Source of the DNA: Rhodohalobacter halophilus
GTDB taxonomy: Bacteria; Bacteroidota; Rhodothermia; Balneolales; Balneolaceae
Length of the DNA: 64,000 nt
Direction of reading: 5' to 3'
Assembly: GCF_001715195.1 (NCBI RefSeq)
Contig: NZ_MDWE01000005.1
Coordinates: 62,001 to 126,000 of the forward strand
Shown here: positions 38,356 through 41,508 of the stretch, one piece after another
How positions within the stretch are numbered: the stretch's first letter is position 1
Layout of the letters: each line of letters starts with the position of its first letter
Made by a program: the position numbers and the translations under genes
The notes under the pieces: generated by a model
What the model saw: only the letters and a program-made list of their open reading frames with translations
What the model was told of the DNA's origin: nothing
Databases searched by the model: none

Positions 38356-38919
38356 ATGAAGTTATCAGTCAAAAATATGGTTTGTCCCCGATGCGTGGAA
38401 TCTGTTTCGGGAATTCTTGCCGGGATGAACATATCCAATGCCGAAGTAGAGCTTGGCTCGGTACATGTTGACAGAAAGTTGACCGATCAAGAGATGTTAA
38501 CTCTTAGTCAACGTCTTCAGGATAAAGGCTTTGAACTGATCTTTGACCGGGAGACGGAACTTGTGAACGAAGTAAAATCGGCTCTGATTAAATATGTTGA
38601 TCATCTGGAAAAGGAACAGAACCCGGAAAAATTGTCGGTATTTGTCTCCCGGTTAACAAACTACAACTACTCTTATCTGAGTAAGATATATTCAGAACAG
38701 ACCGGTGAAACTGTAGAGACACATCTCATTAAAATGAAAATAGAGAGAGTGAAAGAGTTGCTCGGTTTCGAAAAATGGACACTGAGTGAAATAGCTTGGA
38801 GGCTCAAATACAGCAGCGTACAGTATCTATCCAATCAGTTCAAAAAAGTGACCGGGTTGACCGTGACACAATACAGGAAGTCTGATCAAAAAGCCCGTCA
38901 GCCTTTGGATCAGATTTAA
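38356..38919 (+). CDS. AraC-family regulator with N-terminal HMA-like metal-binding domain
   Basis: The 187-residue product joins an N-terminal HMA-like domain (about residues 1-65, with a CxxC pair in KNMVCPRCVESV) to a C-terminal AraC-type DNA-binding domain (about 95-180: LTNYNYSYLSKIYSEQTG, TLSEIAWRLKYSSVQYLSNQFKKVTG). The gene lies 82 bp before copA, so I infer a copper-responsive activator in which metal binding by the CxxC domain controls DNA binding. This domain pair is different from the CueR or CopY regulators usually described. Direct evidence for metal sensing is lacking. Confidence 0.85.
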   Translation: MKLSVKNMVCPRCVESVSGILAGMNISNAEVELGSVHVDRKLTDQEMLTLSQRLQDKGFELIFDRETELVNEVKSALIKYVDHLEKEQNPEKLSVFVSRLTNYNYSYLSKIYSEQTGETVETHLIKMKIERVKELLGFEKWTLSEIAWRLKYSSVQYLSNQFKKVTGLTVTQYRKSDQKARQPLDQI

Positions 38920-39001: not shown

Positions 39002-39466
39002 GTGAAAACTGAATTGCAGAAAATGAAGAAACGTGTTCAAATAAACGGAATGCATTGTGCAGGTTGCGTCAATGCTGTTGAGAAAGTATTGAGTCGCCTG
39101 GATAACGTGAAGGATGTAAACGTTCAGCTTACCACAGAGAGTGCAGAAATTGAAGTGGAAGGGGATGACTTTCCTTATGAGAAAGTTCGGGAAGCAATTG
39201 AAAATGCCGGGTATGAAGTTGAAGAAGAGAAAACTGAATCGGTCTCACTTCAGATAGGAGGGATGCACTGTGCCGGATGCTCTTCAGCCGTTGAAAAAGC
39301 ACTGAATAAAAGAGAGGGGATTATTCAGGCAAATGTGAATCTTACAGCAGAAAAGGCTTTTGTTGAGTACGATTCTTCAATCATTTCAATAGATGAGATC
39401 CGAGAGAGTATTGAGAGTGCCGGTTACGAAGTGATCGATCAGCAAAAAAAAAAGCAAATAAGTTAG
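39002..39466 (+). CDS. Two-HMA-domain protein: copper chaperone or N-terminal part of split CopA
   Basis: The 154 residues contain two tandem heavy-metal-associated domains, each with GMHCAGC (about residues 18-23 and 86-91). The start is GTG 39002, or ATG 39023. The frame runs through an A10 tract (39444-39453) and stops three codons later at 39464-39466. The -1 frame from the same point reads [12 protein letters not shown] and continues without a stop into the CopA core. The protein is therefore either a stand-alone copper chaperone or the product made when a frameshift does not happen. A joined protein would be about 835 residues, a usual CopA length. Confidence 0.85.
39448..39454 (+). other. 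Candidate -1 frameshift site (A AAA AAG) in copA
   Basis: The heptamer A AAA AAG is exactly in phase with the HMA reading frame (codons AAA AAG at 39449-39454) and sits within an A10 run. After a -1 slip the next codons are GCA AAT AAG TTA GAT, leading into the ATPase frame. The zero frame stops after CAA ATA AGT. The same heptamer drives frameshifting in E. coli dnaX. A weak stem (GAGAG with CTCTC, 39478-39500) lies downstream. No strong upstream Shine-Dalgarno-like stimulator is seen. Confidence 0.5.
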
Positions 39467-39516
39467 ATCAAAAAAAGGAGAGAGAAGAGAAAAAGCTCTC
39501 GGCTGCTAAGAAAAAG

Positions 39517-41508
39517 ATGGTTCAGAGCTGGGTTGTAACACTCCCGCTGATGCTCTGGATGTTTCTAAGCATGGTGCTTGGAATTCATCTTACTTCTCAC
39601 CTTGTGATGGAGTTTGCAATGGTTGCCGGTGCCGGTTATGTCCTTTTTGGGCCGGGCTTAGAAACCCTTCGAAGTGCACTGATCTCCAGCCGAAATCTCA
39701 CACCCAACATGGATGTGCTGATTGCTCTCGGAACAACGGCATCACTCATTACCGGATTTGTATCCCTGGCTCATATGTTTGGGTGGGTCCACTCGCCATT
39801 CTACAGTTTTGCCGGGATTGCGGCTATGATCATGTCTTTTCATTTGACCGGCCGATACATTGAAGCAAAGGCACGTGGCCGAGCATCGGATGCAATTACT
39901 AAACTTCTGACACTGGAAGCGAAAACTGCAAGAATTATCAAAAATGGCCTGGAAGAAGAGATTGAAGTAAGTGAATTGAAAAAAGGGGATGTGATGATTG
40001 TCCGCCCGGGCGAAACCATTCCAACAGACGGTGTGGTTGTAGACGGCAAAAGTTCAGTTGACGAATCGATGGTAACCGGAGAGTCGATGCCGGTAGTGAG
40101 GGAGAAAGGGGATGAAGTCATAGGCGGGACGATAAACAGTGAAGGATCGATACGTGTTCAGGCTAAGGAGGTCGGCGAAAATACGTTCCTCAACAAAGTT
40201 ATCCGGATGGTGGAAGAGGCTCAGGGATCGAAAATACCGATTCAGGATTTTGCGGATCGGGTTACGGCTATTTTTGTGCCTGTTGTACTGGCCTTAACAG
40301 CATTTACATTTGCCGTATGGATGATCTTTCCGGAAGGGTTACGCCCGATTCTGGTCTGGGCAGACTCATTTTTGCCATGGATCATCACCGACCTTGAGCC
40401 GGTCAGTCAGGCTTTCTTTGTAGCGCTTGCAGTATTGGTGATTGCATGTCCCTGTGCGCTGGGCTTAGCTACCCCAACCGCCCTGATGGTTGGAACCGGA
40501 CTTGGTGCCGAGAATGGAATTTTAATCCGGAAAGGTGAAGCGATTCAGCGCTTGGAAGAGGTGACAACATTTGTATTTGATAAGACCGGAACTCTGACCA
40601 AAGGTGAGCCTGAAGTGACGGACTGGGTTAGTTTTACAGACGCAGATGAATTGCTGAAAAAGAGAATTGCAGCAATTGAGAACCTTTCGGAGCATCCACT
40701 AAGCAGGGCTATCACTTCTTATACCGGAATTGATGATCTGCCTGATGTAGAAAATTTTGAGTCCTTCACCGGAATGGGTGTAAAAGGAGAGGTGGATGGT
40801 GAACGAATTCTGGCTGGGAATAAAGATCTGCTTGAAAAATTCTCCGTAGCACTTACCTCTGAAGTGGAACGAGAGTCATCCAAACTGTTGGCTTCAGGGA
40901 AAACAACCATATTTTTGGTTATTGGTGAGAAAGTTGAAGCACTTTGCGGTATAAAGGATACTCTGAAAAAAGAGACTCCCGAAGTCATCGCGTCACTGCA
41001 CAAGAAAGGGTATAAAACGGTGATGCTGACGGGAGATCAAGAGAAAGTTGCTGAAATTATTTCAAAAGAGATCGGAATCAATGAGTTTTATGCTCAAGTA
41101 AAACCCGGTGAAAAGTCGGACGTTATCAGACAGCTCCAAGAGAAGGGAGAAGTGGTGGCCATGGTAGGTGACGGAATTAATGATGCGCCTGCATTAACCC
41201 AATCTGATGTTGGAATCGCCCTCGGAACCGGGACTGACATTGCAATTGAATCAGGCAGTATGATTCTTATAGATGGCAACCCGCAAGCAATATTGCGGGC
41301 TATAAACTTGAGCAGGGAGACATTCAAGAAAATTCGTCAAAATCTCTTCTGGGCATTTTTCTATAATTTGGTAATGCTGCCTGTTGCAATGGTTGGCTGG
41401 ATGCATCCCGTTCTGGCTGAAATTGCCATGGCTCTGAGTTCCATCAATGTTGTAGGAAACTCCCGAAGATTGCAGACAAAAAATATTGATGAATCAGGAA
41501 CAAAATAG
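39517..41508 (+). CDS. copA: Copper-exporting P1B-type ATPase core (CopA), in -1 frame to the HMA domains
   Basis: The 663 residues from ATG 39517 hold the whole P1B core: helices, the actuator with [13 protein letters not shown], the CPC metal site (C311, C313 in [12 protein letters not shown]), the phosphorylation site [11 protein letters not shown] (Asp355), the P1[10 protein letters not shown] motif and the hinge [10 protein letters not shown]. The last helices carry YNLVMLP and [12 protein letters not shown], the Cu+ (P1B-1) signatures. The ATG has no ribosome-binding site, and the frame is open upstream to the A10 tract at 39444. This suggests that translation normally enters from the HMA frame by a -1 shift, or that one base is wrong in the homopolymer. 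Confidence 0.92.

Follow-up and report, generated by a model that had tools for sequence, protein, structure and literature searches.

The copA locus of Rhodohalobacter halophilus raises a simple question: how is a copper pump made from a gene whose two parts lie in different reading frames? The earlier note on this DNA had proposed that copA is split at a run of ten A, and that a programmed frameshift there gives a chaperone and a pump from one gene. The window (the whole stretch of DNA analysed) is 64,000 nucleotides long, and in its coordinates the features of the locus are as follows.

38356..38919, + strand: AraC-type regulator with an HMA-like N-terminus (HTH_18, E 2e-13; CopZ-like N-terminus, E 1.4e-4, below the cut-off)
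39023..39466, + strand: CopZ-like frame-0 product with two HMA domains (CXXC, CXXC), 147 aa, stop TAG at 39464-39466; matches to Pfam HMA and NCBIfam CopZ
39444..39453, + strand: A10 slippery tract, read in frame 0 as ..CAA AAA AAA AAG, with an in-phase A_AAA_AAG at 39448-39454; 20 congeneric species have A9-A10 here
39454..39516, + strand: linker in the pump frame (-1), under purifying selection in that frame and without a start codon
39454..41508, + strand: Cu+-ATPase core, frame -1 with respect to the HMA part; P1B-1 type (CPC, YNxxxxP, MxxSSxxVVxNS)
39463..39466, + strand: T-TAG frame-0 stop, in which TTA (39463-39465) is a rare Leu codon of the pump frame and G follows

The split was confirmed as described, with the HMA domains in frame 0 and the ATPase core in the -1 frame. 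The frame-0 codons round the tract are CAG CAA AAA AAA AAG CAA ATA AGT TAG, and the base after the tract is G. The heptamer A_AAA_AAG is indeed in the exact phase for a -1 slip. Frame 0 is open back to GTG 39002, and the start of copA is most likely ATG 39023, which we preferred because it is conserved in relatives. Counted from this start, the joined HMA and pump product has 828 aa, and this corrects the earlier estimate of about 835 residues. The pump frame opens 29 nt upstream of the tract and runs to TAG 41508.

Each of the two HMA domains carries GMHCAGC. The HMA part matched Pfam HMA in two stretches (E 4.7e-39) and NCBIfam CopZ above the cut-off (E 3.7e-33). In addition, the ATPase core scored 566 bits against TIGR01511, copper-translocating P-type ATPase (cut-off 397), and matched CopA entries of the PDB (E 1e-144). 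With the CPC, YN and MxxSS signatures present and the family score over the cut-off, the pump is classified as a P1B-1 Cu+-ATPase (CopA). Thus, one copA with an HMA N-terminus encodes both products here. A scan of 34-46 kb of the window with Rfam returned zero RNA families.

To place the split in its genus, we used 28 species of this Balneolaceae genus, and the copA junction was readable in 22 congeners. In 13 of these 22, the gene was split with an identical -1 register and neither part was disrupted; the tract was A10 in 12 of the split species and A9 in one (G015). Seven in-frame species (G007, G013, G008, G014, G004, G002, and G025) had A9 or A10 at the same site, and in two more in-frame species (G022 and G010) an A9 lay farther down the linker. 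Thus, the tract is 9-10 long in all 20 species with this site, across all three codon phases. All 22 readable orthologs of the genus had A9-A10 in the linker, versus 5 of the 35 copA loci from the rest of the family (Fisher test, P = 2e-11, species taken as independent). Similarly, the split was found in 13/22 loci in the genus versus 0/35 elsewhere in the family (P = 2e-7, species again taken as independent). The 3.12-Mb genome studied here has just three stretches of ten or more A, counting both strands. The scarcity of such runs, together with the enrichment in the genus, indicates that the A tract in copA is more than chance. Furthermore, KKK stretches elsewhere in the same genes were encoded with A9 in only 2 of 11 cases. 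For the in-frame species alone, the retention of A9 or more exceeded the expectation from codon usage only moderately (joint P about 0.01, species taken as independent). As a side observation, two of the in-frame species (G007 and G013) have a second A9 run (GAT AAA AAA AAA CTT) in the same linker, about 45 nt past the main tract.

The frame-0 stop just past the tract is conserved as well. In most split species it is T-TAG, built from the linker Leu codon TTA. Among 19 species, with the in-frame ones counted in, this Leu codon was TTA or CTA in 18, and the 19th species (G024) had TGA at the same place. Only 3-24% of the Leu codons in these genes end in A, and the Leu that comes next in the linker never did. 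Meanwhile, the general excess of early off-frame stops in the linker was not significant, so the argument from the stop is carried by this site-specific Leu result. By this comparison of codons, the out-of-frame stop is conserved through a rare Leu codon.

Evidence for a change of frame comes from the linker between the tract and the ATPase core. In the split species, pN/pS of the linker was 0.29 in the pump frame versus 1.04 and 1.58 in the other frames, and the pump-frame linker aligned with the linker of the in-frame congeners. Across the 13 split species, the opening of the pump frame ranged from 48 nt ahead of the tract to 1 nt within it (the latter in G015). In addition, none of the 13 had an ATG, GTG or TTG in this frame up to the end of the conserved core of the linker, LEEKRxR, and a TTG followed the core in G021 and G001. 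Since the pump-frame linker is under selection and contains no start codon, ribosomes must cross frames at the tract. Recoding, namely a frame change at the tract that yields the joined pump, is therefore very probable. The comparison shows that the frame change takes place at or beside the tract and has been kept in 13 species, and that the joined product is what selection sees.

Three explanations without recoding were weighed against this. If the HMA protein and an HMA-less pump were initiated separately, the pump would start at ATG 39517, and an ATG is present at the end of the linker in 10 of the 13 split species. However, this ATG is absent in G021, G001, and G003, its Met is also found in the in-frame and sister-genus proteins, and the linker ahead of it is conserved as protein in the pump frame. 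The conserved linker without a start and the missing ATG in three species cannot be explained by independent initiation, and a frame change at the tract can explain both; a separate start at 39517 is thus largely refuted and very improbable. The earlier note had pointed out that ATG 39517 lacks a ribosome-binding site. This observation carries no weight, because the ATG of the chaperone and those of the relatives also have no evident SD. The second explanation, a sequencing error or a decaying gene, could appeal to a homopolymer in a draft genome of 92 contigs. This is refuted by the conservation in 13 species, which include assemblies of 7 and 20 contigs (G023 and G003), and by purifying selection on both parts of the gene (pN/pS of 0.41 and 0.26), and we consider it negligible. 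The homopolymer error that the earlier note had kept as an alternative is excluded in this way. That note had also held that an error or a strain-specific mutation would be indicated if relatives had one unbroken frame without the A run; 13 species do not bear this out, and the in-frame congeners keep the A9-A10 run too.

The tract could also vary in length in the DNA itself, so that replication slippage would switch cells between chaperone only and full pump. It is consistent with such phase variation that a single A can separate split from in-frame congeners (A10+G versus A9+G), and that the split or in-frame state changed about 4 times on the tree of the ATPase core. However, all 8 species of one grouping share the split register, as do G021 and G001, which are separate assemblies 96.75% identical to each other and both have A10. 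Random switching would mix the registers rather than leave all of these in the same "off" state, and the conserved stop in the linker better suits a steady use of the tract. Phase variation is therefore improbable, though less so than a separate start.

The remaining question is whether the frame is changed by the ribosome or by RNA polymerase. The two products could be made by -1 ribosomal frameshifting on A_AAA_AAG or A_AAA_AAA, like in E. coli dnaX or IS elements. The in-phase X_XXZ_ZZN heptamer of programmed -1 ribosomal frameshifting is present: it is A_AAA_AAG, a strong ribosomal heptamer, in 7 of the 13 split species and A_AAA_AAA in the other 6. In addition, one tRNA-Lys gene was found in this genome, and it reads UUU, as in E. 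coli, where copA itself relies on ribosomal frameshifting (PMC5009743). However, a conserved stimulator was not found. Simple, pseudoknot-free folding gave no excess stability of the downstream sequence over shuffles (mean z near 0), there was no consistent signal of a hairpin before the tract, and an SD-like element lay upstream in only 2 of the 13 split species, in a group whose own start codons have no evident SD. Furthermore, the best heptamer phase is not conserved, and 9-10 A is longer than a heptamer requires. In E. coli, heptamers that lack stimulators stay within about 10 times the background of 0.055%, that is, well under 1% (PMC4066793). We thus regard ribosomal frameshifting as rather unlikely here, though much less so than the explanations without recoding.

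Slippage of RNA polymerase fits better. Conserved overlapping ORFs together with a conserved A9 run were proposed as a sign of used slippage (Baranov 2005, PMC1088944), and both are found here: the overlapping ORFs are conserved in 13 species, and the overlap holds a conserved run of at least 9 A/T. At this length, selection against slippage is seen in many bacteria (PMC1088944). In tssM1, an A11 run without stimulators gives about 20% by slippage (PMC4256274). We favour polymerase slippage because neither a hairpin nor an SD-like stimulator is conserved, the phase of the heptamer differs between species, and the run never falls below 9 A. As the mechanism of the recoding, it is likely, and a mixture with ribosomal frameshifting is possible. 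On the whole, the best explanation of the locus is that the copA products would be set by RNA-polymerase slippage at the conserved A9-A10 tract, and we give this reading a probability of roughly 0.7. The programmed frameshift of the earlier note thus stands as a conserved frame change that would lead to a two-HMA protein and a full pump; a ribosomal slip on A_AAA_AAG is not specifically supported, and the transcriptional slippage that it had named as an alternative is the better fit.

Under polymerase slippage, faithful copying and reading would give a soluble two-HMA copper-binding protein that ends just past the tract. If the mRNA gained one A (or lost two) by slippage, for which RNA polymerase on the rA:dT tract is the most likely agent, the ATPase core would come into frame and the 828-aa Cu+ pump would be made. 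The result would be a constant mix of chaperone and pump messages in a fixed ratio, and the benefit may lie in the ratio of chaperone to pump. The short product is probably a CopZ-like chaperone, judging from its domains and from the HMA content of the genomes described next. Where the gene is in frame, gaining or losing one A would end the protein soon after the tract, so that both products could be made in these species as well, with the opposite default.

The distribution of other HMA genes suggests how this arrangement arose. In genomes with a readable split gene, we found no Pfam HMA besides the one or two in the split gene itself, and three congeners without this copA carry short free HMA ORFs. 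Meanwhile, a separate CopZ-like HMA ORF of 76-105 aa lies directly before a one-HMA copA in G030, G061, G080, G081, G083, G086, G094, and G115. Both arrangements have a CopZ-like HMA; unlike in the copZ-copA pairs of sister genera, the two HMA units are joined in one ORF in this genus and the A tract separates them from the pump. The two-HMA copA of the genus looks like a copZ-copA fusion. A likely history is that copZ was fused to copA and that the slippery tract was gained afterwards, so that a pump-free HMA protein would be available again. However, four sister-genus genomes (G028, G096, G100, and G102) have neither the A tract nor a separate HMA gene. Thus, the absence of CopZ does not demand slippage and the chaperone is not strictly required, which weakens the absence of a separate CopZ as a proof of need.

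According to reviews and later papers, frame 0 of E. coli copA encodes the pump and a shift gives a 70-aa chaperone, helped by a slippery site, a pseudoknot, and the nascent chain (Meydan 2017, Drees 2017; via PMC5009743, PMC9548414, PMC7558416). The likeness to this CopA(Z) system is that a single copA would give a copper pump and an HMA copper chaperone by a frame change after an HMA domain. In contrast to E. coli, frame 0 here is the two-HMA chaperone, a shift would lead to the pump, and the site is A9-A10 with no stimulator seen. The reversed default that the earlier note had described is borne out in 13 species; the default is E. coli-like in the 7 in-frame species with the same site, in which a shift would truncate.

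A closer parallel in mechanism is the tssM1/tssM3 pair of Citrobacter and Yersinia, in which a slip gives the long form of tssM1 and the short form of tssM3 (PMC4256274). Like these, copA would make two products at an A run without stimulators, and the homologs can be reversed. However, tssM1 and tssM3 are single cases in type VI secretion, and the present tract is found in about 20 species of a genus and in a copper pump. In addition, dnaX is reported to use a ribosomal frameshift in E. coli (A_AAA_AAG) and transcriptional slippage in Thermus (Larsen 2000, cited in PMC3711429, PMC5009743). As in dnaX, one kind of gene would obtain its two products by either mechanism, but here it is the long product, not the short one, that needs the shift in most species.

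Two copA products by a frame change (E. coli) and the reversal between homologs (tssM1/tssM3) were thus already known; what appears new is the reversed copA default in 13 species, the long A-run site, and the flipping of the default within a genus. We found no report of copA with transcriptional slippage in the literature searched, which mostly lacked subscription papers, and the main text of Antonov 2013 mentions neither ATPase nor copper. The widest form of the reading is that RNA-polymerase slippage, selected across the genus, gives copper chaperone and pump from one gene, converging on what E. coli achieves with the ribosome, and that the default was flipped several times by one-A indels while the tract was kept; to this we give even odds. 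If true, it would be a second, independently evolved route to CopZ and CopA from one gene, parallel to dnaX. The 13 split and 9 in-frame natural variants, all with at least 9 A, form a set for measuring what selection maintains, be it the product ratio, the default direction, or only frameshift rescue. In addition, copA genes of MAGs that look "frameshifted" should not be labelled pseudogenes.

Linker runs between the HMA and the core were also observed in in-frame copA genes of other genera, namely A9 in G033, G072, G077, and G076 (one genus) and A10 in G098. In all five, a slip either way would end the product soon after the tract. These runs are possibly independent gains of the same device.

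An AraC-type regulator (38356-38919) with an HMA-like CXXC N-terminus lies directly upstream of copA. From its domains and position, it is probably a metal-responsive regulator of the copA locus, possibly a copper-sensing activator. A similar AraC-type C-terminus is encoded upstream of copA in G033.
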